A DNA stretch of 64,000 nucleotides from Sphingobacterium rhinopitheci (GTDB lineage Bacteria > Bacteroidota > Bacteroidia > Sphingobacteriales > Sphingobacteriaceae), in contig NZ_JADEYQ010000002.1 of assembly GCF_022627575.1 (NCBI RefSeq), forward strand, positions 248,001-312,000, read 5' to 3'. Every line of letters begins with the position of its first letter. Positions within the stretch are counted from its first letter, which is position 1. The position numbers and the translations under genes were made by a program. Below the pieces are notes generated by a model that saw only the letters and a program-made list of their open reading frames with translations, was not told the DNA's origin and made no database searches. This document shows, one piece after another, positions 35,815-58,050 of this stretch.

Positions 35815-37305
35815 CTATTTATTAGACAATTGCTTTTCTGAAGCTGTACCTGGAGAAGTCGCTAGCAACAACAAAAACATGATAAAACCGTTGATAATAA
35901 TTAAATCTAATCCGATTACATAGCTTGTGTACACAGATACTACATACGTATTTAATAAGAATAATACCACAGGAGCTATAACTGCCAAATAAGGAACCAA
36001 CTTATCATTTACAGCCTTCTTTGTAAATAAACCAAAGACGAACAAACCTAATAAAGGACCATAAGTATAACTAGCTGCTGTAAAAATAGCATTAACTACA
36101 GAGTCGTTATTAATCAATTTGAAAATCATAATAACAATTAACATCAACACTGAAAACCCAACATGCACATAATTTCTTTGTCTTACTAAAGCAGGATCAT
36201 TAGGATTCGTCTTCTTGTTGAAGTTTAAGAAATCCACACAATAAGAAGTGGTCAATGCCGTCAATGCAGAGTCAGTCGTTGCAAATGTCGCAGCTGTCAA
36301 TCCCATCATAAATATGATCGCAGGTACAATTGCCAGATGGTTCAATGCAATCTCTGGGTATAAATAATCACGTGTAGCGAGAGCTGCTACATCGATACCA
36401 TTTTTGGTAGCATAGATGTAAAGTAAAGCACCTACCGCTAAGAAGAAAATATTAATTACCACAAATACCGAAGTAAAGGTTATCATATTTTTTTGTGCTT
36501 CTTTAATGGTTCCCATTGAAAGGTTTTTCTGCATCAAATCTTGATCCAGTCCCGTCATGGCGATAGTAATAAATATACCACCCAAGAATTGTTTCCAGAA
36601 ATTAGATTTACTACCTATAAAGTCTTCAAAATAGAAAATCTTCGAGTAAGAGCTATTTTTAACTGCTTCAAAAGTATCTACCACACCATAATCTAATCCC
36701 TTAGCCATGAAGTAAATAGATAAAACAACTGCCGTGATTAAGAATGTCGTTTGCAATGTATCGGTAACAATAATAGTCTTCAAACCGCCTTTATTGGTAT
36801 ATAACCAGATCAACACCAAACATATCGTTACGGTAATTGCAAAGGGCACATTCCAGGCATCAAAGATAAAATGTTGCAATACAATAGCGACCAAGTAAAG
36901 ACGAAATGCCGAGCCAATAGTCCTAGAAACTAAGAAAATAGCTGCACCAGTCTTATACGAAAGGAAACCAAAGCGTTCTTCTAAATAGGTGTAAATAGAA
37001 GTAAGGTTCATCCTATAGTATAAAGGCAGTAATACGTAAGCGATGATAATAAAACCTACAGCATTACCCAATACGAATTGGAAATAACTGAAGTTGGACG
37101 CTCCTACAGCTCCGGGTACAGAAATAAAAGTAACACCAGAGAGTGCTGTTCCAATCATACCAAAGGCAACCATGTACCATTTGGAATTGCGGTTAGCAAC
37201 AAAAAATGTGGAGTTGTCAGATGATCCTTTAGACGTAAAGTGAGCAACAGCTAACAGTACGGCGAAATAAATCACTAAAAATGACAATAAAATAATTGGT
37301 GACAT
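35815..37305 (-). CDS. Sodium:solute symporter (SSS family)
   Basis: A 496-residue inner-membrane protein with about 13 transmembrane helices of the SSS family. Typical blocks are NSTFFVANRNSKWYMVAFGM, GTALSGVTFISVPG, and MTGLDQDLMQKNLS in the sodium/substrate core. It starts 14 bp after murQ and is therefore probably co-transcribed. By location, a MurNAc or related amino-sugar importer is the best guess; the family also moves sugars, sialic acid, nucleosides and amino acids. A nucleoside role cannot be excluded because PNP follows. Confidence 0.85.
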   Translation of the reverse strand: MSPIILLSFLVIYFAVLLAVAHFTSKGSSDNSTFFVANRNSKWYMVAFGMIGTALSGVTFISVPGAVGASNFSYFQFVLGNAVGFIIIAYVLLPLYYRMNLTSIYTYLEERFGFLSYKTGAAIFLVSRTIGSAFRLYLVAIVLQHFIFDAWNVPFAITVTICLVLIWLYTNKGGLKTIIVTDTLQTTFLITAVVLSIYFMAKGLDYGVVDTFEAVKNSSYSKIFYFEDFIGSKSNFWKQFLGGIFITIAMTGLDQDLMQKNLSMGTIKEAQKNMITFTSVFVVINIFFLAVGALLYIYATKNGIDVAALATRDYLYPEIALNHLAIVPAIIFMMGLTAATFATTDSALTALTTSYCVDFLNFNKKTNPNDPALVRQRNYVHVGFSVLMLIVIMIFKLINNDSVVNAIFTAASYTYGPLLGLFVFGLFTKKAVNDKLVPYLAVIAPVVLFLLNTYVVSVYTSYVIGLDLIIINGFIMFLLLLATSPGTASEKQLSNK

Positions 37306-37319
37306 TTTGTTTAGTTAGT

Positions 37320-38135
37320 TTAGATTTGTTTTGCTTTATATGATTCGATAGCTTGACGAACATTTCCAAACTCTTCCAAAAGTTGTGAAGCTGTCTCCTC
37401 ATCTGCTCCTGTCTCCGCCATCACCATACGAACCCCTCTATCTACCAATTTATGATTTGACAGTTGCATATCTACCATTTTATTACCTTTGACACGTCCC
37501 AAGCGTATCATTACTGATGTACTAAGCATATTCAAGGCCAACTTTTGCGCTGTACCTGATTTCATTCGTGTGGAACCCGTCACAAATTCTGGCCCAACGA
37601 TCAACTCAACAGGATATTTAGCAATAGCCGCAATAGGAGAACCACCATTACAAACTATACAACCTGTAGCAATACCTTTTTCATTTGCTGTATTAAGCCC
37701 CCCAATTACGTAAGGCGTAGTTCCTGAGGCAGCAATACCTACAACAACATCATTTTCATTAATATCATATTCTTCAAGGTCTTTCCACGCTTGTTCGATA
37801 TCATCTTCGGCAAATTCTACTGCTTTACGAATTGCAGTATCACCACCCGCGATTAATCCAATAACCCAATCAAAAGGAACACCATAGGTAGGCGGACATT
37901 CAGAAGCATCCAATATCCCTAAACGGCCACTAGTCCCGGCTCCAATATAAAATAGGCGGCCACCTTTTTTCATACGTTCCACCGTCACATTTACTAAAGC
38001 TTCTATATTGGGTATAGCTTTCTCTACAGCCAAAGGTACTGATCTATCTTCCTTATTTATGTTCGTTAATAACTCCAGCACAGACATCTTGTCTAGATCT
38101 TGGTAATTAGAGTCCTTCTCTGTTGTATTTATCAT
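37320..38135 (-). CDS. murQ: N-acetylmuramic acid 6-phosphate etherase
   Basis: A 271-residue SIS-domain enzyme that removes the lactyl ether from MurNAc-6-P to give GlcNAc-6-P and D-lactate in the cytoplasm. The N-terminus has the family pattern TEKDSNYQDLDKMSVLELL with INKEDRSVPLAVEKAIP. FYIGAGTSGRLGILDASECP and VVGIAASGTTPYVIGGL are the SIS phosphate loops, and the C-terminal QLSNHKLVDRG is also typical. It is the most specific marker for peptidoglycan-sugar salvage in this locus. NagA, encoded at 56938-58050, uses its product. Confidence 0.96.
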   Translation of the reverse strand: MINTTEKDSNYQDLDKMSVLELLTNINKEDRSVPLAVEKAIPNIEALVNVTVERMKKGGRLFYIGAGTSGRLGILDASECPPTYGVPFDWVIGLIAGGDTAIRKAVEFAEDDIEQAWKDLEEYDINENDVVVGIAASGTTPYVIGGLNTANEKGIATGCIVCNGGSPIAAIAKYPVELIVGPEFVTGSTRMKSGTAQKLALNMLSTSVMIRLGRVKGNKMVDMQLSNHKLVDRGVRMVMAETGADEETASQLLEEFGNVRQAIESYKAKQI

Positions 38136-38210
38136 TCTTCCGAAAATCTACTTAATTTTTTTATACCTCGTAAATATGCAAATTTTATCTAAAACATGCA
38201 AAAAAACGCA

Positions 38211-40670
38211 CTACATTTTATTTAGTGAAACTAATTTATATTTTTTACTTCGTAAGTCCTTAATAATATATGCTAACTTATTATACAATTTATCTTCTCT
38301 TCGGGGATCCGTACCGATATGAATAAGAACAATACCTCCATTTAAAGAATTTTCACTTTCAAAGTGCTGCAGCTGCGCTATAATCTTGTCCGAAGACATA
38401 TATCTACTATCCATCTGTGGGTAGGTATAATCTGCTGGCGTGCGAATTCCCGGCGTATAATTATAGACATCAAGCCCCATTTCAGCAGACCAATCGACAA
38501 TTTGTTTATTATACCATTCATAGGGCGGGATAAACATGTTAATATCCTTCATCCCTAATTGCTGTAATTTCAGAACATTTGCCTTCAAATCAGCCACGAA
38601 CTCCTCTTTACTTATTAGCAAGCTATCTCTTTTATCCCAAGGAGCATATAGCAGATGTTGGTCAGAATGAGGCCCTACATAATGTCCTTCTTTGATCAGT
38701 TGACGAATTATCTTGGCCGATTTAGTATCTTCTAAAAATCTTCCAGTAACGAAAAAAGCACCTTTGACATCATTTTTCTTCAGTATTTTTGCTATATGTG
38801 GCAAACCATCACTAAACTCATCTCCCGTAAATACCAACGCTATTTCTGGTAAAGTAGTATCACCTTTAACGATTGCACCATACTTATCCGTTGTTCGGTA
38901 TTTACCTTTAGCTTCATTTGCAGCTAGCAGATAGATCAAAGAAGCTGTTCCATCCATTGTCGGCTCATTGGTACTGTAATCACCATAATCATCATGATAG
39001 ACGACCAAATCAGACTGAAAATCAGCATACTCATCCGGATTATTTAATTTAATACCGATTAGATTATTAAAAGTATTAGCATATACAGGTCCATCGACTA
39101 AGCCACCGTCAATAGGAAACTGATGTAAATACGTAAAAGCAGAATGAGGGTCTTCAGGGGTATCACCATTGGCAGGTAAGCCATATACCATACTTGTCCC
39201 CCAAGGATTGACACCAAAAAGCCAATCGATATTTGCTTGAGCCAATTCGTCATATTGATCATCCTCGGTAAGCTCTTTGTACCATTGGCACTGAATTGCA
39301 AAAGAAGTCGTTAGATTGTTGCTACACCAAATAAAAGGTACACCACGATAAAACACATTATCCTTAGCTCTATTCCATACCTGATCGATTCCTTCTTTAT
39401 AATAAGCAACCGCCGCCTCTTTGGTATCGACATTTTTGCCTAGCTCGTAATGTCCTAGATTAATAAAGGGATAATACTGATAATGGTTAGCTGTATCACG
39501 TATCATCCAAGGAGTTACTTTCTCTTGCTGCGCATAATCTAACGCTTTAGTCAGATATTGCTTATCTTTAAATAACGAATACATGGTCATCTCTGCCAGC
39601 TCCATATCGTCTACCCAATTATCTTCAGCATATATATACGGAGATTTTACGGAGACAGTCTGCGTCACGCCAGGTTTTATATAGGCATATTCATAGGCCG
39701 TTTTTACCTTATCTTTAAGTAGCCTAGCATAATCGGGCTTGCTATCATTGAACAAAGTATGCCCCAAACCAAAGGCTGCTACAAACTTAGCAGCAGTAGA
39801 ACTAGTACCTGTAGTATTATTCATAAACTTACCCCTTTGCTGCGGCTTGCCATCAATAAAATAAACAGGACGTTCATGCCCTCTCCCATATAATGAATCC
39901 TGACCTGGTAAGCGCAAATTAACGTGATCACGATCATCTGCAATCTGGTTAAACATCATATTGGGTTGTGGATGCATTTTCAATAACCAATCTAATCCCC
40001 ACTTAGCTTCGTCCATTATATCAGGTATACCATTCTTACCATCCAAGCCATTGGCTATCTTCACGTCTGTAAATACCTGCGGAAAATCACGATAAGCAGC
40101 CAGCAAATGATAAGTAGCATTGGCAGAAGTCGTAGAATATTGGAGGTAATCGGAAGCGTCATGCCAGCCACCACCTGCATCGATATGTGTACTATCTGGC
40201 AACCCCACTGATTGAGCATACATCGTAAAACCATCATGCGTATGACAGCTATCTTGTAAAAAAGGATTGAATAGTGTACGTTGCTGTCTCATATAACGCA
40301 ATACAAAATCTGCTGTCCCTTTGTAGACATCATCATTTATTCTAAAATTTGGCGAACGTACACCATCGTCCGTTAATATATAATAGGTTCCATTAGTATT
40401 CAGTGCCGAAAAATCTAATCTATATCCTTGAGCAAATGGTCCATAAGCACCAAATTTTTTGCCTACTTTAGCTTTTAACACCTGTTGATTAGAAACACTA
40501 TTTATAACCTTAAAATTGTTTAACGTACGGCTTTCTTTAGTTACCCATACTGCCACTTTTTTACTTTGAGGCAAATACCCCAATTGATTGATTCTAATCC
40601 AAGATTGCTCTTGCCCCAAGGCAACAACGATACTTAGGCAATAAACGAATAGTAAAAATACTCTAATCAT
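38211..40670 (-). CDS. GH9 glycoside hydrolase fused to a CE4-like polysaccharide deacetylase
   Basis: An 819-residue exported protein with two enzyme modules. After the signal peptide (about 1-19) comes an Ig-like CelD_N domain (about 22-112), then a GH9 barrel: HIDAGGGWHDASDY supplies the base pair Asp 171/Asp 174, FGVNPWGTSMVYG is conserved, and STNEPTMDGTA gives the acid Glu 569. From about 609 a NodB/CE4 domain follows: metal His 668 and His 672 in HSDQH and a late VLIHIG. Its first motif is FTGDE instead of TFDDG, and the Arg of the RxPP motif is Ile (MFIPPYEW). GH9 includes cellulases and exo-glucosaminidases; with a deacetylase, a GlcNAc/GlcN-containing glycan is plausible. It starts 6 bp after the preceding gene. 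Confidence 0.85.
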   Translation of the reverse strand: MIRVFLLFVYCLSIVVALGQEQSWIRINQLGYLPQSKKVAVWVTKESRTLNNFKVINSVSNQQVLKAKVGKKFGAYGPFAQGYRLDFSALNTNGTYYILTDDGVRSPNFRINDDVYKGTADFVLRYMRQQRTLFNPFLQDSCHTHDGFTMYAQSVGLPDSTHIDAGGGWHDASDYLQYSTTSANATYHLLAAYRDFPQVFTDVKIANGLDGKNGIPDIMDEAKWGLDWLLKMHPQPNMMFNQIADDRDHVNLRLPGQDSLYGRGHERPVYFIDGKPQQRGKFMNNTTGTSSTAAKFVAAFGLGHTLFNDSKPDYARLLKDKVKTAYEYAYIKPGVTQTVSVKSPYIYAEDNWVDDMELAEMTMYSLFKDKQYLTKALDYAQQEKVTPWMIRDTANHYQYYPFINLGHYELGKNVDTKEAAVAYYKEGIDQVWNRAKDNVFYRGVPFIWCSNNLTTSFAIQCQWYKELTEDDQYDELAQANIDWLFGVNPWGTSMVYGLPANGDTPEDPHSAFTYLHQFPIDGGLVDGPVYANTFNNLIGIKLNNPDEYADFQSDLVVYHDDYGDYSTNEPTMDGTASLIYLLAANEAKGKYRTTDKYGAIVKGDTTLPEIALVFTGDEFSDGLPHIAKILKKNDVKGAFFVTGRFLEDTKSAKIIRQLIKEGHYVGPHSDQHLLYAPWDKRDSLLISKEEFVADLKANVLKLQQLGMKDINMFIPPYEWYNKQIVDWSAEMGLDVYNYTPGIRTPADYTYPQMDSRYMSSDKIIAQLQHFESENSLNGGIVLIHIGTDPRREDKLYNKLAYIIKDLRSKKYKLVSLNKM

Positions 40671-40676: not shown

Positions 40677-42509
40677 TTAATACGTTAAAGAAACAATTTT
40701 GCCATCCATGGCACTCACGATCACCTTATTATTCAATACTAAAGGAGGGTTTACCATTGCATTGCTAATTTTATATTGCCAAAGTACAGCACCATTTGTA
40801 GCATCTACGGCTGACAATAAGCCAGAATTATTAGGTACAAACACCACATTCTTATCGCTATAAATAGCTGAAGGGGTCAATTCGTAACCTAGATTCAATT
40901 GTGATTGCCAGTCGACACTCATATTGTCTTTAGCAGTAGAAACACCTATCAACTCTCCATCCATTGTTTTTGCATAAGCCAATTTCTTATCTTTCGATAA
41001 TCCCATAGATTCACGTACACGAATATCATCTTTCTTCTCTCGCCATATCACAGCACCTGTTTTCAAGTCCAAAGCAGTCATAAAACGATCTGGCGCTACG
41101 ATAAAGACACGATTATTGGCAACTACGGGATAGCATGCTGCTGCAGAAAACATTCTATTAGCATGACCATTGTTCCATTCCCATACCAACTTCCCTGTAT
41201 CCATTGATAGCGCATAAAAACCATTGCCCCAGCTACCAAAAATTACTTTTCCATCAGCCAAAGTAGGTAGCGTAGACACAAAATTTTTCACTTGATCAAA
41301 TGTCCATAGCACCGTTCCGTCAGACACACGGATACACCTAAATATACCATCAGAGCCTCCTACGTAAGCATTCCCTTTGCTTATAGCTGCAGATCCTAAG
41401 ACCGCTTTATTGGTTTTTAACGTCCATTTCAACTTCCCGGTCTTAGCGTCAAGACCATAGATATTATGATCCGAAGAACCTACTACTACCGTACCTTTGT
41501 AATATGCAGGTGTAGCATATACCTTACCACCTGTACGATAAGACCATTTTTTCATACCCGTATTGCTATCTAAAGCATATATATCACCTACTGTATTTGC
41601 CGCAAATATTAGTTTACCATCTGTGGACATCCCAGAACCTATATCACCATGGTCTTCATATACCCACTGCACCTTTGCTGTAGTGGTCGTATTGACTGTA
41701 TAATCTGGTCGTTGAAAACCATCTCTATTTTGCAATCTTTGCAGCGGTAGCTTAAGCCAATAATCTTCTGTTTTAACCAAAGGCCTACGTACCTGAAAAA
41801 ACGCCGAATCCCCTGTCAAGGTTATAATATTATACCCACCTACTTCATCCTTAGCACGTAGATTAGATCTACTCATCACACCGGGGATACCATCCCAGTC
41901 GTATAACTTGTTACTATGGCCATGACCACATAATGCCAATTGTATATTACGCTGATATAACCTATCTACCAAAGAATACCAATTGTTTAAGGAAGGATCT
42001 AAGGGATAGTGGTTAATAGATATCAAAGGAGCGTCAGCATCTGGATTAGCATTGAAAACAGAATCTAACCATACTAAATTTTCACGTGGTATCTGCCCTG
42101 GGCTCATCCGCATATTAGGGCCTGAAGTAGTCCCTACAAACTGGTATCCTTTATGCTTAAAAAAGAACGCTTCGGAACCAAATACTTTACGAAAGGAATT
42201 GGCACCACTCTCAGACCAGTTGCTATCGTGATTACCGGGAATGATATACATCGGCAATTGCAAGGAATCTAAAATCTGTTTCGCTAATGCTAATTCAGCA
42301 TCAGAACCAAATTCGGTAACGTCTCCTGAGATGATTACAAAATCTATATCGCGCGAATTGTTCAAATCAGCAACGGTACGTCTCAAGTCATCGGCACCAG
42401 TAGCACCTCCAAGATGAGTGTCTGTTACCTGTGCAAATTTAAAAGGAGTTTGTGCTGCGGCTACCGTAGCGCCACATAATAAGGCTAGGGCTAATAATTT
42501 TCTTTTCAT
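40677..42509 (-). CDS. Metallophosphoesterase fused to a PQQ-type beta-propeller, exported
   Basis: About 610 residues. The frame can be extended to a TTG at 42533, but that codon lies inside a TATCTTTG promoter element; the ATG at 42509 gives MKRKLLALALLCGATVAAAQ, a clear signal peptide. A calcineurin-like phosphoesterase follows: QVTDTHLGG, IISGDVTEFG, IIPGNHDSNW, SINHYPLD, LCGHGHSNKLYDW, which together supply the two-metal site. From about residue 290 there are WD-like repeats of the PQQ/BamB type (DIYALDSNTGMKKWSY; NIYGLDAKTGKLKWTL). Expected location is periplasm or surface. The substrate is unknown. It is followed after 6 bp by the GH9-CE4 gene. Confidence 0.85.
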   Translation of the reverse strand: MKRKLLALALLCGATVAAAQTPFKFAQVTDTHLGGATGADDLRRTVADLNNSRDIDFVIISGDVTEFGSDAELALAKQILDSLQLPMYIIPGNHDSNWSESGANSFRKVFGSEAFFFKHKGYQFVGTTSGPNMRMSPGQIPRENLVWLDSVFNANPDADAPLISINHYPLDPSLNNWYSLVDRLYQRNIQLALCGHGHSNKLYDWDGIPGVMSRSNLRAKDEVGGYNIITLTGDSAFFQVRRPLVKTEDYWLKLPLQRLQNRDGFQRPDYTVNTTTTAKVQWVYEDHGDIGSGMSTDGKLIFAANTVGDIYALDSNTGMKKWSYRTGGKVYATPAYYKGTVVVGSSDHNIYGLDAKTGKLKWTLKTNKAVLGSAAISKGNAYVGGSDGIFRCIRVSDGTVLWTFDQVKNFVSTLPTLADGKVIFGSWGNGFYALSMDTGKLVWEWNNGHANRMFSAAACYPVVANNRVFIVAPDRFMTALDLKTGAVIWREKKDDIRVRESMGLSKDKKLAYAKTMDGELIGVSTAKDNMSVDWQSQLNLGYELTPSAIYSDKNVVFVPNNSGLLSAVDATNGAVLWQYKISNAMVNPPLVLNNKVIVSAMDGKIVSLTY

Positions 42510-42530
42510 ATGATATATTAAAAGGGCATC

Positions 42531-42538
42531 CAAAGATA
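42531..42538 (-). promoter_or_regulatory. Candidate -7 element (TATCTTTG)
   Basis: TATCTTTG on the minus strand, 21 bp before the ATG at 42509, matches TAnnTTTG. It argues that the upstream TTG is not the translation start. Confidence 0.5.
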
Positions 42539-42898: not shown

Positions 42899-42927
42899 AA
42901 AAGGCTTCAACATTGTTGAAGCCTTTT
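42899..42927 (-). terminator. Terminator after susD (pair B)
   Basis: AAAAGGCTTCAAC and GTTGAAGCCTTTT form a 13-bp perfect stem with an ATT loop, 22 bp past the stop. Confidence 0.85.
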
Positions 42928-42948: not shown

Positions 42949-44799
42949 CTACCAACCTTTAGTCTGCGTCAACTTATAACCACGCGATGCGTAGTCAGCA
43001 ATTTGCGCTGTACCAACAGGTGCTAAATAATTTTTGTCTTCTACTTTATTTCTGTTTCTAGCTTTTGGAATAATATAATAACCAATCATATCGTCAGCGT
43101 TATTACCATTATAAGCAACAATTGTCCCATTAGCTTTACGTACAGAAGGAATATTAGAAGGCGAATAAGCCTCTAAAATTGAAGGCGCTTCAGTTTTTAA
43201 ATTCACCCATGGCCCTAAGAAATAATCTGAGTTGTCTGCAAAATCCATATAATGCAATTTTTTCCAGCGTCTTAAGTCATTTAAACGAGCGAATTCAAAA
43301 ACAAATTCCATACGACGTTCGCGACGGATTTCCCACATCAATGGAGACACATCGGCGTCACGCTCTGGATCATTGGCAATGTTCCCAATTAATAACGGAG
43401 CTGTTTGCGTAACACCTTTAGCGATAGCTACCGCATCCAAAGGTCTTTTTCGAATAGCATTAATAGATTTGTCAATATCAGACTGCGTAACAGGAGCACC
43501 ACCGAAATTTTCAGCCAAAATTTGTTTTGCTTCTACCCAATTTAATACCACCTCAGCATAACGGATAACTGGTGCATCGGTAATATTCGTATTACTAGAC
43601 CACGATGCATAGCTCGCGTCAGATACGGGCATTTTATAAGCTGCTCTTGATACAAATTTATTACCATAGATCAAAGAAGATGCAATAGGATTCGCTTCTG
43701 AATCAAAAGAAGCTTCAAATCGTGGATCACGTGTCTTCGCTAAATTTGCTAAAGAATAATCAGTAGCACCCGCGACAGTTGAACTCGTTGCAGGTTTACC
43801 ATCTACAAGTACAAATTCCTTAACTAGATTTAAGTTAGGCGCTGATTGTTGGTCTAGATTACCATTTTGATAGGAAGCAATAGCATGCGTAATACTTAAG
43901 GTATTGTCATAAGCACGGTACATGATTACTTCTTTATTATTTGCTAAGCTAAGCGAAGAAAATAAAGATTTATAATCCGACGTAAATTCATATTTACCAG
44001 AATTGATTACCACCTCAGCAGCCTTTTGAGCTAGCTCCAAATATTTTTTAGCACGGTCTTGATCCAAACCATGATATTTCTGCCAAGAACCTTCAAATAA
44101 CATTAGCTTAGATATATATGATGCTGCTACATTTTTATCTAATACATTCGTACCGTCAGTTGTTCTGATATTGTCTAATACAAACAAAAAGTCATCATAC
44201 ACCTTGTCCATCACAACGCCACGATCGTCACGATCCTTGTATTGTGTAGCAAAATCAGTATCCGAAACTTCTGTTTCAAAATATGGCACATCACCAAATG
44301 TAGATACCAAACGTGAATATTCATACCCTTTAAAGAAACGTGCTACAGCCAACCAATGATTATACTGCTCAGTCGTCAAATTTGGTTTAGCAAGGCTCTC
44401 TAATCTATTCAAAAAGATATTAGATTTTCTAACCCATGAGAAGTTCCATGATGGTCCGGCATATTCCGACAACCATGCTGCAAGTTCTGAAGTACTCGCA
44501 CGATCTGGTGGAGCAGTATTTTCAAAACTATTTTGTGGACCTTCCATCGTTGTAATATCATCAGTCATAGTATATCCACGTACAGGTGTATAATCTGTAG
44601 ACCAAGAGCTATTATAACCATTGAAATATTGTGTATAGAATCCAGATGCAAACAAGCGTACATCCGTTTCATTACGCCAATACGAACCATCCTTATCTAC
44701 AACCTCATCCAAAGGAGGTCTATCCAAAAGTTTCTCACAGCTCGTCAAAGCGATAGAGGAGCCTAATAATATATATAAAAGATTATTTTTTAATTTCAT
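42949..44799 (-). CDS. SusD/RagB family lipoprotein (pair B)
   Basis: A SusD-like lipoprotein of about 616 residues. The frame opens at 44811, but the ATG at 44799 (MKLKNNLLYILLGSSIALTS) gives a clean lipoprotein signal ending in TSCEKLLDRPP. Typical SusD blocks are FFKGYEYSRLVSTFGDVPYF, RYAEVVLNWVEAKQILAENF and MWEIRRERRMEFVFEFARLN. It binds the ligand at the surface and caps the SusC of pair B, whose stop codon is 12 bp upstream. Clustering with namZ suggests a muropeptide or glycan-strand fragment as ligand. Confidence 0.93.
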   Translation of the reverse strand: MKLKNNLLYILLGSSIALTSCEKLLDRPPLDEVVDKDGSYWRNETDVRLFASGFYTQYFNGYNSSWSTDYTPVRGYTMTDDITTMEGPQNSFENTAPPDRASTSELAAWLSEYAGPSWNFSWVRKSNIFLNRLESLAKPNLTTEQYNHWLAVARFFKGYEYSRLVSTFGDVPYFETEVSDTDFATQYKDRDDRGVVMDKVYDDFLFVLDNIRTTDGTNVLDKNVAASYISKLMLFEGSWQKYHGLDQDRAKKYLELAQKAAEVVINSGKYEFTSDYKSLFSSLSLANNKEVIMYRAYDNTLSITHAIASYQNGNLDQQSAPNLNLVKEFVLVDGKPATSSTVAGATDYSLANLAKTRDPRFEASFDSEANPIASSLIYGNKFVSRAAYKMPVSDASYASWSSNTNITDAPVIRYAEVVLNWVEAKQILAENFGGAPVTQSDIDKSINAIRKRPLDAVAIAKGVTQTAPLLIGNIANDPERDADVSPLMWEIRRERRMEFVFEFARLNDLRRWKKLHYMDFADNSDYFLGPWVNLKTEAPSILEAYSPSNIPSVRKANGTIVAYNGNNADDMIGYYIIPKARNRNKVEDKNYLAPVGTAQIADYASRGYKLTQTKGW

Positions 44800-44810
44800 A
44801 ATATGAATCA

Positions 44811-48257: not shown

Positions 48258-48341
48258 GTGTAGCAATTAATTAAATAAACGTTTTTTATGTTATCATTAC
48301 TCAGACTAATCCAATAATTAGCCTGCTTAGGTTTGTAATCT

Positions 48342-49860: not shown

Positions 49861-49889
49861 AATCCGCTATGTAAATTACATAGCGGATT
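49861..49889 (-). terminator. Terminator after susD (pair C)
   Basis: A perfect 14-bp stem (AATCCGCTATGTAA and its complement) around one central base, with an A/T run on the exit side, 19 bp past the stop. Confidence 0.85.
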
Positions 49890-49908: not shown

Positions 49909-51534
49909 CTATTTATCCCAAAAAATAGGTTTAGCTAAATACCCAATACTTCCGGCCTCAGGATCTTGTTTTAACACCTGTTCCAGATTAAAATTGATAG
50001 AATAGGATGCAACAGCAAATCGACGTGGCCACATATTCGTTTGTGGATATTCTTGCGTGTATACATTACCAGGTCGATTGTACCCTTTGTATATACCCGT
50101 AGTTTCATTATATTGATTTGAAGCATCAGCACAGAAATTCATTCTTCTCATATCAGAAAACAATTCTGGTGAATAAGATAGTGCGATATACTTCTGAATC
50201 ATAATATGACTCAATGTTAATACTCCAGCACTCTGAACTACAGAAGTACTATTCAGGTAAGCATCAGCATGAAGCCCCATAGTTTCAATATGCGACTTTA
50301 TACCCGCTTTATAAGCCGCTAAAGCCTCTTGACGATTTCCTTTTTTGAATTGTACCTCTGCCTCAATAAATTTCATTTCTGCATAAGTCAATAACAAGCC
50401 TTTAGACCCTTTTAGTGTATACCAAGTACCTAAGAACTTCTTAGTACCTAGGGTATCTTTAGCTATATCCATAGGAACAGTACTTCGTAACAACTGTATA
50501 TATTGCGTTTCAGTAGTTGCAATACCAGCGCCCGTAATCGTTGCCATATTTACTCCTTCTGTCCATACAGTATCTATATATCGTGTATTACCATTCGGAT
50601 TCAACTTCAATATACCATAGCTCGCGGCTAATAATTTATAGCGTGGATCCTGAACATTATTATTACCCGAGGGTGCCCCAGTATAGTTATTATTAATATA
50701 ATCAAGATACAACTTCGTCAAACGTGTTGCACTATTGTTTTGATATTGTAAGGAGTTTGTAGCCGAATTACCAGAGATAGCTTCGTCTTGATACGCATAT
50801 ATCGCACTCTCCTCATTGGATGCAGGGCCTAGTTTTAATGCCGCCAAGATAGCATCAGGGTTATACTCAGTAGTCTTAGACAAATGGTTCAAATGTCTAG
50901 CCTTGATACCATAAGCAAATTTAATCCACTTCGAAACATCACCAGCAAATAAATAATCACCTTTAGCAAGTGAAATAGCAGCAGGCCCTTGTGCTTTTTG
51001 AAGCTCCAAAATTCCTTCATCCAATAGTGCTAAAGCTTTTTCATAAATCAATGAACCATCATCATATTTGGGATTCATAATAGAAGCATCAAAAGCCTCC
51101 TCATAAGGTAGCATTCCATACAAATCAGCAAGGGTCAAATAACCTAAAGCATACATTATCTTTCCTACACCTATATAGTGGTAAGACTCTGTCTCTTCAG
51201 CCTTTTGTATCATTGGCGCAATATTGGAGGCACAATTTACAAACCATGCTTGATAAGGCCATGCTACACTCGCTGCAGTAGAATACCATCTACTCAGATT
51301 ATAATTATTACTACTAGAACCCGTTGCTGCCAATTGGCCTATGATTAAAGAAGTACGTGTTCCAGCACTTTCATAGCCATCCATAAATTGTGCTAAAACA
51401 GGAGGCAGACGTAAATCTGGAGTAGGTACAGATTCATCTGCGGAATTAGGATTATCGTTGACATCTAACCACTTCTCACAAGATGACATTACTAAAGATG
51501 TAGCTATCGCTAATATTGAGAATATTTTTTTCAT
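49909..51534 (-). CDS. SusD-like lipoprotein, SusD-like_2 type (pair C)
   Basis: A 541-residue SusD homologue of the second subfamily. The lipobox is LVMSSCEKWLDVND, followed by NPNSADESVPTPDLRLPPVL, typical of this group. A middle TPR-like region includes GKIMYALGYLTLADLYGMLP; later come LLTYAEMKFIEAEVQFKKG and a C-terminal MWPRRFAVASYSINFNLEQV. It should work with the SusC of pair C, whose stop is 3 bp upstream. The subfamily differs from pair B, so the two pairs may take up different fragments. Confidence 0.92.
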   Translation of the reverse strand: MKKIFSILAIATSLVMSSCEKWLDVNDNPNSADESVPTPDLRLPPVLAQFMDGYESAGTRTSLIIGQLAATGSSSNNYNLSRWYSTAASVAWPYQAWFVNCASNIAPMIQKAEETESYHYIGVGKIMYALGYLTLADLYGMLPYEEAFDASIMNPKYDDGSLIYEKALALLDEGILELQKAQGPAAISLAKGDYLFAGDVSKWIKFAYGIKARHLNHLSKTTEYNPDAILAALKLGPASNEESAIYAYQDEAISGNSATNSLQYQNNSATRLTKLYLDYINNNYTGAPSGNNNVQDPRYKLLAASYGILKLNPNGNTRYIDTVWTEGVNMATITGAGIATTETQYIQLLRSTVPMDIAKDTLGTKKFLGTWYTLKGSKGLLLTYAEMKFIEAEVQFKKGNRQEALAAYKAGIKSHIETMGLHADAYLNSTSVVQSAGVLTLSHIMIQKYIALSYSPELFSDMRRMNFCADASNQYNETTGIYKGYNRPGNVYTQEYPQTNMWPRRFAVASYSINFNLEQVLKQDPEAGSIGYLAKPIFWDK

Positions 51535-51537: not shown

Positions 51538-54500
51538 CTAAAATTTTAAGTTGACACCAAATGTTACCCCTCTTGTACTTGGAACACCAGCATAGTCAAT
51601 ACCAACAGAACCAGATCCTACCACACCAGCACCTGCAGCACTAGATTCAGGATCCATCCCTGTATAATTTGTAAACAACAATAAGTTAGTCCCCGTTAAA
51701 TTAAAAGAAACACCTTTAAATACTTTCGATTTTGCTAAGACTTCCTTCGGCAAATCATACCCTAAAACTATAGAACGCAACCTCACCCAATTGACGTCTT
51801 CGATGAAATTAGCCGTCTCCTTAACAAAATAATCTTGATAAAATTTTTGATCTGCTACTACCTCTTTAGACACCGCTTCATAAGCATCGGTAGATGGATT
51901 TTTGGCAACACCTGTCAAAGTAATCTTGTCTCCACGACTTGCTGTTTGTTCACTCAAGCCATATTGTGTCAATAAATACTCTGTACCATTCAAGACAGCA
52001 CCACCTTTACGGAAATCTATCAAGAAAGACAAATTCCAGTTTTTATAGGTAAAGTTATTATTCAAACCACCGATAAATCGAGGTTCTCTATTGGCTAAAT
52101 AATTAGTCTCTAAAGCCGATACCGTTGGTAATCCTGTATTCCAATCCAAAATAACATTACCGTCCGTATCTCTATTCCATTTAGCACCAGAAATACCCAT
52201 AAAAGCACCATTTTCAAAAGAAGCTGCTTTACCACCTGCTACTTGTACATCTGTAACATACAATATCGAAATATCACCCGGCAGATCCTTTACAGTACCT
52301 CTATTACCTGACATATTTAAGGCTACATCCCATACAAAATCTTGTCTTTTGATAGGTGAATAATTCAATGTCAATTCTAAACCTCTATTTTGTAATGTAC
52401 CAGCATTCACATACTTCAATATATATCCCGTAGCATTATCTACACGAGGCTGTAATATCTGATCCACAGATTTATTATCATAATAGGTGAATTCTACGCC
52501 CAATTTGTTATTGAAGAATTTCAAATCAGTACCAATTTCAAATGACTGTGTTTTTTCAGGCTTTAGGTTAGGATTACCAATTGTCCATTCATTTCTAAAA
52601 CCGCCACCTACAGTCATTTGTACATCTTTCAGGTAAGTCGCTGTCTGATATGCTGGAGCATCTTTACCTACCTCAGCCCATGATGCCCTCAACTTACCAT
52701 AGCTCAGGATACTATTTTTCTCAAACAACTCCGTAAAGATTAAACTTCCGCTGTAGGAAGGATACATAAAAGAGCGATTTTGAATAGGTAGCGTCGAAGA
52801 CCAGTCATTTCTTAAGGTTACCCCTAAAAAGGCATAGTTTTTATACCCAACTTTGGCATCACCAAATACACCTACACGGCGTACACGGTTCAAATTTGAA
52901 TAAGAGAATTTATCTTGCGCTTTCGCATTATTTAAAGATAGAAAATTAGGTAATATAAAATTCTGTGCTCTATTCGATGTTGTATTAAGGTTAATATTTT
53001 CGGTAGACAAACCGGCCAATACATTCAAATTCCAATCTGGATTGATGTCAACATTATAATTTAACAATAAGTTGTTATTTATAAAATTATATTGTCTAAT
53101 AGTTTCTGAAAGCATACCATTCTGCCAATCTAATTTTACAGCAGAGCCTTTAGCAATTACAGACTTATAGTTGGATGTATATTGGTCAATACCTAAACGA
53201 TACGTAAAATCAAGTCCTTTAGCTAATTTTGCTGTAGCATAAAATGTACCTAAGAAACGATCTGTCTTATCTGTCTGTGGATTCTTATTCACTATCCAAT
53301 ACGGATTATCAATATTGTTTTCTAAAAGAATAGATGGAAACATCAAGTTCTGATCCCCATTAGGCAATTGCCAATCTTTCATGTTTCTATTTCTTGGCCA
53401 AGCAATAATAGATTCCATATATCCGGAGCCACTTCCACCCCAGAGACCTGAGCCTGTTAATGTTTTTTGTGTATTTGACACAGAATAAGATGCATTGGCA
53501 CCAAAAGTCAAAATACCATAACGTTGCTCCCCATTCAAACGAAATGTAGTACGATCATAATCTGTGGTAGGGACGATACCCGTCTGTTTGAAGTTAGATC
53601 CTGAAAGGTAAAAATTCCCTGTAGCACTACCACCAGTCACATTAAAGCTATTATCAAATGAATAACCAGTATCAAAGAAATCTTTTAAGTTATTATAGAT
53701 AGGCTCCCCAGGCGTAAACTCATTACCCCAAGACCAATAGGTTTCTTCTGTGTATTTGTTATTATAATTGGATCCCTGTTTGTATTTTGCTTGCTGCTCT
53801 GGCAATTTGTTTACCCAATTGGCACCCGTTCTAGAATTTACACCAATCGAGACAACACCTTCTTTACCTTTTTTGGTTGTTATCACAATTGCGCCAGCAG
53901 CAGCACGAATACCATATAGTGCCGCAGCCGTAGGTCCCTTCAGTACAGAGATAGACTCAATATCCTCTGGGTTGATATCCATTGCTCTGTTGCCATTTGT
54001 CGTTGAAATATTGGTACTCCCATTCACTGCTGACATATCGCCTACACCAGTAGAGTTATCCATGGGCATACCATCGATAACAAACAAGGGTTGATTGTCA
54101 CGCTCCAATGAAGTACCTCCTCTAATAATGATGGAAGATGATGCTCCCGGTGCTCCTCCAGAATTAGTAATATTCAAACCCGCAATTTTACCATTCAATG
54201 AATTGATAATATTAGGATTTTTATTCTTCATTAATTCGTCTGCTTTAATATCCTGAACTGCATATCCTAATCCTCTTTTTTCTTTTTTGATACCCAATGC
54301 GGTAACAACCACTTCATCAATAGCTTCATCAGCATTGGCAAGTGTTACATTATACACATTAGATGAACCTACTGTTTCGGCCAGTTGATTTGCTCCAATA
54401 GATCTAAAAAGTAAAACTTCACCTGGTGCTGCTTGAATAGAAAAAGTACCATCTGAATTGGTTTGCACTGACCGATTAGTCCCTTTGACAACGACGGTTA

Positions 54501-54621
54501 CATTACTCAAAGCTTCTCCAGAGGAGGATACCACTTTGCCGGTAATAGATTTTTGCTGAGCCATCAAGCAAGATGCAAATAATGCCACCCCGCAAAATGT
54601 GAGAAGAAATCTTCTTTTCAT
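51538..54621 (-). CDS. SusC/RagA TonB-dependent transporter (pair C)
   Basis: A 1027-residue SusC-like protein. Signal peptide about 1-21 (SCLMAQQ), a carboxypeptidase-regulatory-like domain (SITGKVVSSSGEALSNVTVV), then DEVVVTALGIKKEKRGLGYA, the plug (NPEDIESISVLKGPTAAALY) and a barrel ending in GVTFGVNLKF. The TALGIKKEKR variant is usual in SusC proteins paired with SusD-like_2 lipoproteins, which fits its partner. It is the first gene of the pair C unit; a 594-bp gap precedes it. Confidence 0.95.
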   Translation of the reverse strand: MKRRFLLTFCGVALFASCLMAQQKSITGKVVSSSGEALSNVTVVVKGTNRSVQTNSDGTFSIQAAPGEVLLFRSIGANQLAETVGSSNVYNVTLANADEAIDEVVVTALGIKKEKRGLGYAVQDIKADELMKNKNPNIINSLNGKIAGLNITNSGGAPGASSSIIIRGGTSLERDNQPLFVIDGMPMDNSTGVGDMSAVNGSTNISTTNGNRAMDINPEDIESISVLKGPTAAALYGIRAAAGAIVITTKKGKEGVVSIGVNSRTGANWVNKLPEQQAKYKQGSNYNNKYTEETYWSWGNEFTPGEPIYNNLKDFFDTGYSFDNSFNVTGGSATGNFYLSGSNFKQTGIVPTTDYDRTTFRLNGEQRYGILTFGANASYSVSNTQKTLTGSGLWGGSGSGYMESIIAWPRNRNMKDWQLPNGDQNLMFPSILLENNIDNPYWIVNKNPQTDKTDRFLGTFYATAKLAKGLDFTYRLGIDQYTSNYKSVIAKGSAVKLDWQNGMLSETIRQYNFINNNLLLNYNVDINPDWNLNVLAGLSTENINLNTTSNRAQNFILPNFLSLNNAKAQDKFSYSNLNRVRRVGVFGDAKVGYKNYAFLGVTLRNDWSSTLPIQNRSFMYPSYSGSLIFTELFEKNSILSYGKLRASWAEVGKDAPAYQTATYLKDVQMTVGGGFRNEWTIGNPNLKPEKTQSFEIGTDLKFFNNKLGVEFTYYDNKSVDQILQPRVDNATGYILKYVNAGTLQNRGLELTLNYSPIKRQDFVWDVALNMSGNRGTVKDLPGDISILYVTDVQVAGGKAASFENGAFMGISGAKWNRDTDGNVILDWNTGLPTVSALETNYLANREPRFIGGLNNNFTYKNWNLSFLIDFRKGGAVLNGTEYLLTQYGLSEQTASRGDKITLTGVAKNPSTDAYEAVSKEVVADQKFYQDYFVKETANFIEDVNWVRLRSIVLGYDLPKEVLAKSKVFKGVSFNLTGTNLLLFTNYTGMDPESSAAGAGVVGSGSVGIDYAGVPSTRGVTFGVNLKF

Positions 54622-54912: not shown

Positions 54913-54935
54913 ATAACTAAAAACACAATATTTAC

Positions 54936-55158: not shown

Positions 55159-55195
55159 AAACGCCTTCAAAGTTTAGTATACTTTGAAGGCGTTT
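55159..55195 (-). terminator. Terminator after the DigH-like gene
   Basis: AAACGCCTTCAAAGT and ACTTTGAAGGCGTTT form a 15-bp perfect stem with a 7-nt loop, about 20 bp past the stop. Confidence 0.88.
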
Positions 55196-55215
55196 GTTAC
55201 CACTATAATATCCTA

Positions 55216-56853
55216 CTACTTTGCCTGTACTGGCTTAGCGATATAAGGGCTTTCATTACCCAAACGATCTACCGCTTTCACAGCGACATCGTATAATGTT
55301 TTACCCTCTTTCTTCTTTGGCAACAATTTACCTGTAAGCCCAGGTTCTAAAATTTCTGTTGTCCATACCTCACCATATCTTGTATACAAAATCCATTGTC
55401 TTATCTCATCAGATTGCTTATGTAACCACTTCGCATAAATACCATCTTTCTCCGTTGTCAACAACAATGTCGGTTGTAACAAAGGATTAGCATTCAACCA
55501 TGGCGTCAATGGAACTAACGCTTGCTCTTGATACATTGAAGATTTAATCTTATTGAGCATTGTTGGATTTTTTGTCAAACCTGCAATACTCCAATGTACA
55601 GCACCAGGGCTATTAGGGACAAGTTCACGTGTTGCTTGTAATTGATTAACAATCTCTGTAGGTTTATCAGCAGCTCTTATTTCTACGGTATTCAATCCTG
55701 GCCACAAGTGTCTATTGTGTTTATTCTCCGACTGCCACCATTTTAATAAAGCCGTAAAGCTTTGTTTTGGAGGATTAATAGGCCAATACAACTGAGGAGT
55801 AAAATAATCTACCCATCCTTGGTTCCACCACAATTTGGCATCGGCATATAACTCATCATATTGTGAAGAACCTGTAATACCAGCAGGATATCCAGGCTTC
55901 CAAATACCAAATGGACTTAAGCCAAATTTGACATGATTTTTTTCTTCTTTAATTTCTTTATATACACGTTCAATAAAACGATTCACATTATCTCTACGCC
56001 AATCTGGTCTTGACAATGTACCACCATTTGTTTTATAAGCTTTCCATGTTTTATCATCCGGAAAATCAGCCCCTCCATTATAAGTCGCATAAGGATAAAA
56101 ATAATCATCAAAATGCACACCATCGATATTATAACGTTTTACAATATCATTAACTACAGCAGCAGCATGATCTTGTGTACGCTGATCCGAAGGATCAAAC
56201 CAATACATACCGTTCTTCAGACGAACGATATAATCTGATGCTTTACGAACCATAGATTCATTTGTCACTTGGCCACCATTTGAATGGTGTGCACGATAAG
56301 GATTCAACCAAACATGCAGCTCTAATCCGCGCTTATGTGCCTCTGCTGTCCAAAACTCTAATGGATCATAATATGGTGTTGGTGCTTTACCAATTTCGCC
56401 ATTTAAAAAGATGGACCAAGGCTCTAGTTTACTATTATATAAAGCATCTGCCGATGGACGAACCTGAAATATTACAGCATTAAAATTATTGTCTTTTAGC
56501 AGATCCAATAATGCAATCGCTTCTTTTTTCTGATCCTCCGTAGAAAGATTACGCTTACTAGGCCAATTAATATTAGCTACTGTCGCTACCCAAGCAGCAC
56601 GAAATTCGCGAGGCACTTTAGGTAATTCAACTTTCAAGTTTTCTTCAGCTACAGGTGTTTTTGCTACAATACCTTCTTTTACAACCTTTTTAGGAATTCT
56701 ATCATTAATAACAATAGACGTATCTACAGTAATCGTTACAGCACTTGCTTGTACGGGGCTTTCTAACACTTTAGTCTTTTTAGACTTACACGCCATAAAA
56801 AGAGTTGACATAATGCCAACAAGCACAAAATATCTTATAAATTTAATTGTCAT
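55216..56853 (-). CDS. GHL10 (DUF187) glycosidase, DigH/YddW-like lipoprotein
   Basis: About 545 residues. A TTG at 56862 would extend the frame but lies in a TAGATTTG element; ATG 56853 is preferred. The N-terminus is a lipoprotein signal (GIMSTLFMACKSK). The GHL10 barrel is clear: EFRAAWVATVANINWPS, FNAVIFQVRPSADALYNS, LHVWLNPYRAHHS, YNIDGVHFDDYFYPY, HVKFGLSPFGIWKPG, and a C-terminal Fn3-like part (about 450-545). E. coli DigH of this family cleaves denuded peptidoglycan glycan strands. Its place beside nagA, namZ and murQ supports the same role. It starts about 85 bp after nagA. Confidence 0.88.
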   Translation of the reverse strand: MTIKFIRYFVLVGIMSTLFMACKSKKTKVLESPVQASAVTITVDTSIVINDRIPKKVVKEGIVAKTPVAEENLKVELPKVPREFRAAWVATVANINWPSKRNLSTEDQKKEAIALLDLLKDNNFNAVIFQVRPSADALYNSKLEPWSIFLNGEIGKAPTPYYDPLEFWTAEAHKRGLELHVWLNPYRAHHSNGGQVTNESMVRKASDYIVRLKNGMYWFDPSDQRTQDHAAAVVNDIVKRYNIDGVHFDDYFYPYATYNGGADFPDDKTWKAYKTNGGTLSRPDWRRDNVNRFIERVYKEIKEEKNHVKFGLSPFGIWKPGYPAGITGSSQYDELYADAKLWWNQGWVDYFTPQLYWPINPPKQSFTALLKWWQSENKHNRHLWPGLNTVEIRAADKPTEIVNQLQATRELVPNSPGAVHWSIAGLTKNPTMLNKIKSSMYQEQALVPLTPWLNANPLLQPTLLLTTEKDGIYAKWLHKQSDEIRQWILYTRYGEVWTTEILEPGLTGKLLPKKKEGKTLYDVAVKAVDRLGNESPYIAKPVQAK

Positions 56854-56859
56854 AGACGA

Positions 56860-56867
56860 CAAATCTA
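56860..56867 (-). promoter_or_regulatory. Candidate -7 element (TAGATTTG) of the DigH-like gene
   Basis: TAGATTTG on the minus strand lies 6 bp before the preferred ATG at 56853 and fits TAnnTTTG. The transcript would have a very short leader, and no -33 TTTG is seen at standard spacing. Confidence 0.35.
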
Positions 56868-56937
56868 CTGTATTTAGCTTGATTAATTACGATTGCAATT
56901 GAAAACGTATTTAATTTTTTACAATTCCGTTAATACC

Positions 56938-58050
56938 TTAAACTACTTTTTCTCCATCTAAAAATACAGCCTTAACATTAAAATCATGATCGAAAGCCGT
57001 AATATTAGCACGGAAACCTTTTTTCAGTTGACCTACATCTTGCAATTTCATCAATCGCGCTGGATACAATGTGGCCATACGAATAGCTTCACCTATATCC
57101 ATATTAACGTTCTTCACACAATTTTCAATAGCCATCAATAAAGACAAAGCAGAACCAGACAACGTGCCGTCAGGTAAAATATAATGATCGCCATTCAATA
57201 TGTGCTGATACACAGAAGTACTACATGAAGCAACAGCATCTGTAATTAAAAACAATCGCTCGCCCATCATTTTTTTACTCAGCTTGACGGCATCATAATC
57301 CACATGAATACCATCTACGATGATAGAAGCACAGACCGTATCGTGGTTGAAAGTGGCACCAGGCACACCCATATCACGGTGATGCAATGGTGACATGGCA
57401 TTCCAAAGGTGTGTAACCGCAGGAATGCCAGCATCAAATGCCGCTGTAGCTTGTTCAAATGTAGCATTACTATGTCCTGCACTTACTAGTATATTCTTTT
57501 CTTTAAGGTAATCCAATGATGCTATATTCGCAAGTTCAGGAGCCACAGTCATAATCTTCACCACATCGTCAGCCTCAGATAATAGATCTACCAAGACAGG
57601 AACAGCGATAGGAATCACTAGATCCGCAGGATGTGCTCCTCTTTTCTTTTCATTAAGAAATGGACCTTCAAGGTGTAAGCCTGCTGCCGATCTCCGCGTA
57701 GAGGATTTAAATATTGATATAGCTTCCTTAAACAATGCTATACTATTAGTGGCCAATGTCAAGTAAAAAGTAGTACAACCTTGTTTCAATAAGTTATTTT
57801 CTATCCTTTGGATGCATTCGCTAGTCAAATCTGCAGAATACAAATCCGATCCTGTACCATAAATCTGTAAATCTATCAATCCTGGACAGATAGTAGCTCC
57901 TTTTAAATCATATTTTTCGTATTGATCAGGTATCGTATTCGCATCAACTATATCCTCGATTAATCCATCTTTAATTAAGATAGATTGACCAAATAAAACA
58001 TCATAATTGGTATAGATGGTTCCATTGTATAAAGCAATAGGTTTATTCAT
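56938..58050 (-). CDS. nagA: N-acetylglucosamine-6-phosphate deacetylase
   Basis: A 370-residue amidohydrolase that converts GlcNAc-6-P to GlcN-6-P and acetate. Metal and substrate blocks are GLHLEGPFLNEKKRGAHP (metal Glu), SAGHSNATFEQA and VTHLWNAMSPLHHRDMG (metal His residues), DGIHVDYDAVK and LITDAVAS (catalytic Asp). It acts directly after MurQ in MurNAc salvage and is probably the first gene of the minus-strand locus. Length is slightly short of the usual ~385 but complete at both ends. Confidence 0.95.
   Translation of the reverse strand: MNKPIALYNGTIYTNYDVLFGQSILIKDGLIEDIVDANTIPDQYEKYDLKGATICPGLIDLQIYGTGSDLYSADLTSECIQRIENNLLKQGCTTFYLTLATNSIALFKEAISIFKSSTRRSAAGLHLEGPFLNEKKRGAHPADLVIPIAVPVLVDLLSEADDVVKIMTVAPELANIASLDYLKEKNILVSAGHSNATFEQATAAFDAGIPAVTHLWNAMSPLHHRDMGVPGATFNHDTVCASIIVDGIHVDYDAVKLSKKMMGERLFLITDAVASCSTSVYQHILNGDHYILPDGTLSGSALSLLMAIENCVKNVNMDIGEAIRMATLYPARLMKLQDVGQLKKGFRANITAFDHDFNVKAVFLDGEKVV

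Follow-up and report, generated by a model that had tools for sequence, protein, structure and literature searches.

An eleven-gene run on the minus strand of Sphingobacterium rhinopitheci is very probably a locus for the utilisation of peptidoglycan sugars, organised as a polysaccharide utilisation locus (PUL). The run occupies positions 35815 to 58050 of a 64,000-nt stretch of contig NZ_JADEYQ010000002.1 (contig positions 248001 to 312000; hereafter, the window), within a 3.69 Mb genome that shares its genus with Sphingobacterium sp. CZ-2. It combines genes for the salvage of N-acetylmuramic acid (MurNAc) with two SusC/SusD (SusCD) pairs, representatives of the systems by which Bacteroidota chiefly take up glycans. 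A preliminary description of the sequence had proposed salvage of peptidoglycan glycans through SusCD, and this proposal is supported both by a partially conserved linkage of the genes among relatives and by the cell-wall genes found in related loci.

Results

Gene families of the locus

Searches of the open reading frames (ORFs) against Pfam and NCBIfam recovered all eleven previously named genes on one strand. Starting from the 35815 side, the domains are SSF; SIS/MurQ; a fusion of CelD_N, GH9 and CE4; metallophosphoesterase with PQQ/BamB (the phosphoesterase-propeller protein, PEprop); SusD_RagB; SusC; NamZ_N with NamZ_C; SusD-like_2; SusC; GHL10; and NagA (Table 1). Pfam cut-offs were passed by GHL10, NamZ_N, NamZ_C, GH9, CelD_N and Polysacc_deac_1, and MurQ and NagA exceeded their curated cut-offs, that of MurQ being an equivalog cut-off. 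NamZ was assigned to GH171 from the presence of both of its domains, not from catalytic residues. Among the matches listed, the genome holds three members of the namZ family and one each of MurQ and GHL10.

Consistent with a PUL, susC and susD adjoin in both pairs (gaps of -1 and 3 bases), and the carbohydrate-active enzymes NamZ, GH9, CE4-like and GHL10 share the strand run with them. The sodium:solute symporter (SSS) gene lies 14 bases from murQ, an arrangement of the murTKQ type, and was present in 26 of 29 murQ-bearing stretches chosen for a nearby namZ or GH9. Its closest solved chain, 5nv9, is itself a putative sodium:solute symporter. The known MurNAc importer Tf_MurT of Tannerella forsythia is described as a sodium symporter whose gene shares an operon with murQ and murK (PMC5790795), and by analogy the SSS gene is a candidate importer of MurNAc of the MurT type.

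The sole solved match of the GHL10 protein was Cwp19 (5oq2) of Clostridioides difficile, described as a lytic transglycosylase (PMC6016235); the role of Cwp19 is in autolysis, whereas the window protein sits in a SusCD locus. Its assignment to GHL10 stands. As to its chemistry, the nearest solved relative suggests that the enzyme may act as a lytic transglycosylase; hydrolysis of the DigH type, as proposed earlier, is an equal possibility. If the protein acts like Cwp19, it would generate 1,6-anhydroMurNAc ends, the substrate of AnmK.

Conserved linkage among relatives

The locus was compared with 151 family-level genomes grouped by genus (g1, Sphingobacterium; g4, Parapedobacter; g14, Pedobacter; other genera are given by g-number only). 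As namZ, murQ and GHL10 occur in at least 148, 148 and 141 of these genomes, respectively, their presence is uninformative and linkage becomes the test. Positions were taken from the best 150 matches to each gene, so that the linkage counts cover part of the 151 genomes. Among the matches listed, namZ and murQ lay within 20 kb of each other in 39 of the 126 genomes with both, against 1.4 expected under random placement in 4.5 Mb, although the comparison is not a probability, the genomes being related and not independent. Chance juxtaposition of the two genes was rejected on these counts. The pairing occurred in 8 of 19 genera among the same matches.

Both SusD proteins were used as queries, with at most 8 or 9 candidates scored per genome. 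Excluding the query itself, there were 55 rows for homologues of SusD_a. In 38 of them murQ or namZ was no more than 30 kb away, and in 47 murQ, namZ or GHL10 was, where GHL10 positions were entered only for genomes with SusD_a away from murQ and namZ. Counterparts of SusC_a with 38-66% identity were found in other murQ loci. SusD_b was recovered in 14 of the 151 genomes at E<=1e-60, its own included, and 11 of the 13 rows for its relatives were within 30 kb of murQ. The preliminary description named a lack of conserved clustering in relatives as grounds for refutation; such clustering is seen for namZ-murQ and for SusD_a, and the proposal was not refuted on this point.

The search with the GH9-CE4 fusion matched 53 of the 151 genomes, of which 46 had a strong match covering the whole of GH9 and were kept (G001, G002, G030, G047, G048, G055 and G059, where the match was weak or partial, were set aside). 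Within 30 kb of the fusion, murQ was present in 24 of the 46 genomes, namZ in at least 21 and GHL10 in at least 12, the latter two counts being lower bounds and that for GHL10 drawn from 25 rows. The association followed genus: murQ was near the fusion in all carriers of g1 (9/9), g4 (4/4), g16 (5/5), g5 (2/2) and g17 (1/1), in some of g20 (2/5) and g8 (1/2), and in none of Pedobacter (0/13), g21 (0/4) and g13 (0/1). GH9-CE4 was therefore rejected as a general marker of peptidoglycan loci, being located elsewhere in the last three genera. Its common neighbours there include an FAA hydrolase and proteins that, judged by eye, resemble transporters and other housekeeping proteins.

A further set of named loci comprised the best 80 of 585 confirmed GH9 loci, that is, those closest to the query. 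All 17 of the named loci from Sphingobacterium and Parapedobacter carry PEprop, GH9, CE4, MurQ and SSS, whereas the remaining 63 have GH9 without MurQ in the retrieved flank. A family represented by DUF2911 was observed near GH9 in 31 of the 63 non-Sphingobacterium loci (L052-L113), at a median distance of 372 bases; the window has a DUF2911 gene of its own (15107-15949, plus strand), beside a GH123 gene (13353-15095).

Genes joining related loci

The domain scan of the retrieved related stretches covered part of the unlabelled ORFs, and the instances of GH18 given below are thus not a frequency. Genes that join the SusCD loci of other genera include AnmK, NagB, GH3-beta-lactamase, NlpC/P60, epimerase-like and D-hydroxyacid-dehydrogenase-like genes. 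These are largely cell-wall genes, and some are chitin-type. In g20 and g7, the interval between PEprop and murQ holds an NlpC/P60+SH3 protein, an enolase-superfamily protein, a GH3-beta-lactamase and a class-A-beta-lactamase-like protein; L120, L123 and L136 have all four, L135 has three and L137 has the GH3 alone. The nearest models of the enolase-superfamily protein are DgcA and L-Ala-D/L-Glu epimerase, both below cut-off. In Rhodothermus, a GH3 with a beta-lactamase domain has been connected with the turnover of peptidoglycan (PMC6987092).

An FAD-oxidase/4Fe-4S protein is encoded beside SSS-murQ in eight genomes (L117, L119, L120, L123, L138, L139, L163 and L164); its nearest curated models, D-2-hydroxyglutarate dehydrogenase and glycolate oxidase, are below cut-off. 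Since MurQ releases D-lactate, a D-hydroxyacid oxidase would fit beside murQ. The FAD-oxidase/4Fe-4S protein of the window (16015-18933, minus strand, 972 aa) was considered for this role and rejected as a distant paralogue (28% identity over 675 residues).

Six SusD_a rows with at least 50% identity were not near murQ or namZ, and the surroundings of five of these were retrieved (L155-L162; g21, Pedobacter and g13). They contain a NagB-family gene in 5/5 cases, AnmK in 4/5, a NagX-like gene in 4/5, a window-type GHL10 in 4/5 and PEprop in 2/5. AnmK also occurs in the g16 locus L133 (611 bits against a cut-off of 616).

Two recurrent arrangements were seen beside the SusCD genes of relatives. 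One is a trio between SusD and PEprop, which groups an uncharacterised protein of 267-277 aa with a PKD-domain protein and a GH18 (L135 7828-11316; L145 12651-16186). The other is a module beside SusCD_a that pairs a DUF4623 protein with a further GHL10 (L129 5259-8232, L146 13722-16720, L162 13736-16666, L163 2-2582 and L164 1212-4210).

Pathway genes elsewhere in the genome

The preliminary description noted that AnmK, a MurK-type kinase and NagB are missing from the window, and that the route consequently needs genes encoded elsewhere. Genome-wide searches, in which AmgK-type kinases were not included, confirmed this with a single match for each, all outside the window: one AnmK (E 6.6e-92, at C59), one BcrAD/BadF-type kinase (at C11, under the Pfam cut-off) and one gene of the glucosamine-6-phosphate isomerase (NagB) family with an open frame of 640 aa. 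There was also one GH3 match, and a NagX-like gene that is below the NagX curated cut-off and 55% identical to one near a g16 locus.

The best matches of the C11 kinase were 1zxo (E 3e-64) and 1zbs (E 1.5e-59), both proposed to be able to phosphorylate MurNAc (PMC10465942); matches to the T. forsythia K1058 and MurK structures ranged from E 6e-58 to 3e-54. At the lactyl-pocket positions S133-P134-L135 of MurK it reads the small residues S-S-A. By family, every step of the pathway is represented in the genome, with candidates for the MurNAc kinase step.

The GH9-CE4 fusion and PEprop

GH9 and CE4 are fused in 54 of the 80 named loci and encoded by neighbouring ORFs in 16 (fused or adjacent in 70), with no CE4 match in 10. 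PEprop is itself fused to GH9 in the Parapedobacter-genus loci L045, L149 and L150, and its phosphoesterase part matches Phosphohydrolase 2dxl/2zo9 (E 1.2e-8).

In the GH9 part, D171 and D174 (DAxD) and E569 (NEP motif), which we take to be the catalytic residues of the family, are invariant in 43 aligned rows. The Glu is nearly invariant in a second alignment of 17 rows, in which fused rows were cut at 600 codons, and the motif residues align with the matching motifs of 3x17. Endoglucanases are nearest by sequence (3x17, E 6.3e-41; 6gdt, E 6.8e-12). A structural model, in which stretches 495-544 and 555-570 have a predicted local distance difference test (pLDDT) score <50, gave the same ranking (3x17, Z 27.1, root-mean-square deviation 4.0 over 490; leading endoglucanases, Z 25-27, others down to 23; exo-glucosaminidases, Z 22.9-23.2). 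Long loops after helices 1 and 9 are described as closing the -2 side in exo-acting GH9 glucosaminidases, with reported helix 1-2 linkers of 51 residues in VC0615, 44 in Tf-Cel9A and 67 in CbhA (PMC6096475). The corresponding linker is 49 residues long in the model, the other loops of which are low-confidence.

By profile, the CE4 domain is nearest to Bacillus PdaA-kind polysaccharide deacetylases; by fold, BA0150, Bc1960 and BA3943 come nearest. Both His of motif 2 are conserved, and across 71 sequences either Asp or His stands as the candidate third metal ligand, with HMMER alignments disagreeing on the residue at that position. Motif 1 is non-canonical, reading (F/L)(T/S)(G/A)(D/H)(E/D) in 71 sequences. 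Speaking against an active enzyme, the first Foldseek match by E-value is a mutant of BA3943, a pseudoenzyme according to its entry. The CE4 half is CE4-like in fold and may either act as a deacetylase of altered type or have no catalytic role.

The surroundings of the fusion point to amino-sugar substrates without proving them: NagA adjoins GH9 in L054, L055, L082 and L084 and is one gene away from GH9/CE4 in L126 and L132 of g20, GH20 and HGSNAT-type genes are also near in L126, and a NagX-like gene is present in the genome itself. The GH9 enzyme VC0615 of Vibrio cholerae is reported to cut (GlcN)2 and not (GlcNAc)2 (PMC6096475). An enzyme of this kind would thus need a deacetylase upstream of it, and the pairing of GH9 with a deacetylase would make sense, but the GH9 of the fusion ranks nearer to endoglucanases. 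We tentatively suggest that GH9-CE4 might be a new peptidoglycan-directed pair, in which the CE4-like half would deacetylate a terminal N-acetylglucosamine (GlcNAc) and GH9 would then free glucosamine, alternating with NamZ sugar by sugar. A NagX-type acetyltransferase encoded elsewhere might re-acetylate the glucosamine, and PEprop might act ahead of the pair by removing teichoic acids or other polymers attached through phosphodiester links.

A NAGPA-type phosphodiester glycosidase was found to adjoin namZ in two related loci (L121 4016-4897; L139 15519). Together with PEprop, such an enzyme could act on phosphodiester-linked wall polymers.

Transcription units and neighbouring genes

Judging from intergenic gaps of 594, 313 and 415 bases inside the run and from a pair of terminator-like hairpins, the genes may form four transcription units: nagA-GHL10; susCD_b; namZ-susCD_a; and PEprop-GH9CE4-murQ-SSS onward. 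The hairpin scan returned 15 sites with T-tails against 9.4 +/- 3.4 in shuffled sequence, and the longest stems were those 3' of SusD_b and SusD_a. A promoter scan was uninformative (65 found, 67.9 expected). The start codon of PEprop is probably a few codons 3' of the TTG.

Table 1 Features of the candidate peptidoglycan-sugar locus and its downstream neighbours
Feature	Position	Strand	Evidence
nagA, GlcNAc-6-phosphate deacetylase	56938..58050	-	TIGR00221 323 bits, cut-off 225.65; NagA_N + amidohydrolase
GHL10 glycosidase / lytic-transglycosylase-type, lipoprotein-like N-terminus by eye	55216..56862	-	PF02638 E 6.9e-59; 5oq2 E 2.3e-68
SusC_b, TonB-dependent outer-membrane importer	51538..54621	-	Plug, TonB barrel, CarbopepD_reg_2
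SusD_b, surface glycan-binding lipoprotein type	49909..51534	-	SusD-like_2 E 1.4e-34
Terminator-like hairpin + T-tail, 3' of SusD_b	49861..49889	-	hairpin scan
namZ (GH171 type), exo-N-acetylmuramidase family	48342..49595	-	NamZ_N E 2.8e-69, NamZ_C E 1.3e-29; 4jja E 8e-101
SusC_a, TonB-dependent outer-membrane importer	44811..48266	-	domain search
SusD_a	42949..44811	-	SusD_RagB E 7.6e-24
Terminator-like hairpin + T-tail, 3' of SusD_a	42899..42927	-	hairpin scan
PEprop, calcineurin-like phosphoesterase + BamB/PQQ-type propeller, secreted type by eye	40677..42533	-	domain search
GH9-CE4 fusion, signal peptide by eye	38211..40670	-	GH9 E 1.2e-66, CelD_N E 1.3e-21, Polysacc_deac_1 E 2.3e-15
murQ, MurNAc-6-phosphate etherase	37320..38135	-	TIGR00274 336.3 bits, cut-off 302
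SSS, sodium:solute symporter, candidate MurT-type MurNAc importer	35815..37305	-	PF00474; 5nv9 E 2.7e-27
PNP, purine nucleoside phosphorylase, downstream neighbour, functional link doubtful	34936..35751	-	curated family match
Porin_10 outer-membrane porin, downstream neighbour, link doubtful	32905..34914	-	domain match

Of the downstream neighbours, PNP follows SSS in 14 of the 17 named Sphingobacterium and Parapedobacter loci, and Porin_10 is likewise present in 14 of them. Further downstream, beyond three tandem tRNA-Val(tac) genes (32511-32758) that separate it from the locus, is a third SusC/SusD pair (27228-32279, minus strand). A CdaA-type diadenylate cyclase gene (20002-20826, minus strand) lies 15 kb from the eleven-gene run. 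On the other side, about 3 kb beyond nagA and behind a recG-like gene, the plus strand encodes a hybrid histidine kinase with a receiver domain (61171-62934). DeoR-type regulators occur in the related loci L155, L157 and L164.

Discussion

Proposed route and points against it

The families described above suggest the following route, whose substrate, localisation and direction of flow we infer from sequence. GHL10 would cut the glycan strands of the wall by lytic-transglycosylase or hydrolase chemistry, and the SusCD pairs would bind the fragments at the surface and import them via TonB. In the periplasm, NamZ would trim MurNAc from the non-reducing ends, as is known for its family, and GH9-CE4, perhaps with the help of PEprop, would handle the GlcNAc side or substituents. 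SSS would carry MurNAc into the cell like the MurT of T. forsythia, where AnmK and/or the MurK-type kinase encoded elsewhere would make MurNAc-6-phosphate. MurQ would convert this to GlcNAc-6-phosphate and D-lactate, and NagA and NagB would feed glucosamine-6-phosphate into glycolysis.

Several findings weigh against this interpretation. The near-universal occurrence of namZ, murQ and GHL10 deprives their mere presence of meaning, and the namZ-murQ pair was not found within 20 kb in 11 of the 19 genera, Pedobacter, g15, g18 and g21 among them, in the matches listed. SusCD_b has few close relatives and is less widely conserved, and in G064 and G074 the relatives of SusD_b are more than 100 kb from murQ. 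The usual catalytic base Asp of CE4 (TFDD) was not found in the fusion, where HMMER places Thr opposite it. Domain searches found no sensor-regulator among the eleven ORFs of 35815-58050, a regulator of its own not being universal in PULs. Finally, the C11 kinase has His at the position of MurK Thr94, where Asn or His has been named for kinases that would not fit MurNAc (PMC10465942), and it could be a GlcNAc kinase.

Alternative explanations

The GH18 and GH20 genes of related loci raise the question of whether this is instead a general amino-sugar locus for chitin or chitooligosaccharides with recruited peptidoglycan genes, in which SusCD would import GlcNAc oligomers and murQ and namZ would be a side business. 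GH18 is encoded between SusD and PEprop (L135, L145) and beside SusD_a (L161), GH20 occurs in L117 and L126, chitin sugars would also suit the NagX-like genes found near several loci, and the GH9 exo-glucosaminidases of vibrios are described as serving chitin use (PMC6096475). We regard this explanation as improbable, because NamZ, MurQ and AnmK are muramic-acid families, the NlpC/P60 and epimerase-like genes fit stem peptides, and domain searches found no GH18 or GH20 in the eleven window proteins. Somewhat less remote, though still unlikely, is that the locus serves recycling and not the scavenging of foreign wall, retrieving pieces that the cell sheds across its outer membrane as its own wall turns over. 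MurQ, NagA and AnmK are indeed recycling families, and with a single match each in the genome, AnmK, GH3 and MurQ must be shared with recycling. However, two SusCD pairs import from outside, and the lipoprotein-like N-termini of NamZ and GHL10, judged by eye, fit a placement at the surface or outer membrane without showing it.

The role of the GH9-CE4 fusion has to be weighed separately. It might be a beta-glucanase unrelated to the cell wall that is in the locus by happenstance, as its closeness to endoglucanases in both sequence and fold, the 63 of 80 named loci without MurQ in the retrieved flank and its absence from 10 of 19 same-genus genomes would suggest. Against this stand the nearby murQ in every carrier of five genera, the NagA genes adjacent to or one gene from GH9, and the pairing with a deacetylase-like domain in 70 of the 80 named loci; on balance, we consider happenstance doubtful, and the proposed peptidoglycan-directed pair is just as tentative. 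For the locus as a whole, peptidoglycan-sugar utilisation remains the reading that we favour.

Relation to known systems and significance

The closest described counterpart is the murTKQ/ampG cluster of T. forsythia, with which the locus has in common a murQ operon that includes a MurT-kind sodium symporter, and the route from MurNAc to GlcNAc-6-phosphate (PMC5790795, PMC7670621, PMC10465942). It differs in that the kinase is not adjacent and in the addition of the SusCD pairs, namZ, GHL10, nagA and GH9-CE4; the sections of the published accounts consulted describe the T. forsythia cluster without mention of SusC/SusD. With SusC/SusD PULs in general, it shares the two SusCD pairs and glycosidases on one strand, whereas its probable target is peptidoglycan and no regulator was seen among the eleven ORFs. 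The exo-acting GH9 glucosaminidases VC0615 and PBPRA0520 of Vibrionaceae are described as having an N-terminal Ig/Fn3-like domain followed by GH9 (PMC6096475), as in the window protein, which differs in being nearer to endoglucanases (Z 27.1 versus 23.2), in its covalent CE4-like partner and in its murQ/namZ context. The locus may thus be viewed as MurNAc salvage in a variant form, integrated into a SusCD locus and accompanied by a GH9-CE4-PEprop module. Among the titles and abstract openings listed in literature searches, we saw no peptidoglycan PUL and no GH9-CE4-PEprop module, which is weak evidence of novelty, as two of the searches covered 20 of 4,921 and 20 of 161 papers and most subscription journals lay outside them.

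The bacterial wall is a large pool of carbon and nitrogen. Were a SusCD locus for peptidoglycan conserved in genera that include cultured strains, the scavenging of wall material could be put to the test in organisms other than the oral model T. forsythia. That an enzyme of a cellulase family should be fused to a deacetylase-like domain was not expected; the pairing gives a family known mainly for cellulases a new function to probe and, if PEprop does strip phosphodiester-linked polymers, the walls of Gram-positive bacteria would be opened to the system.

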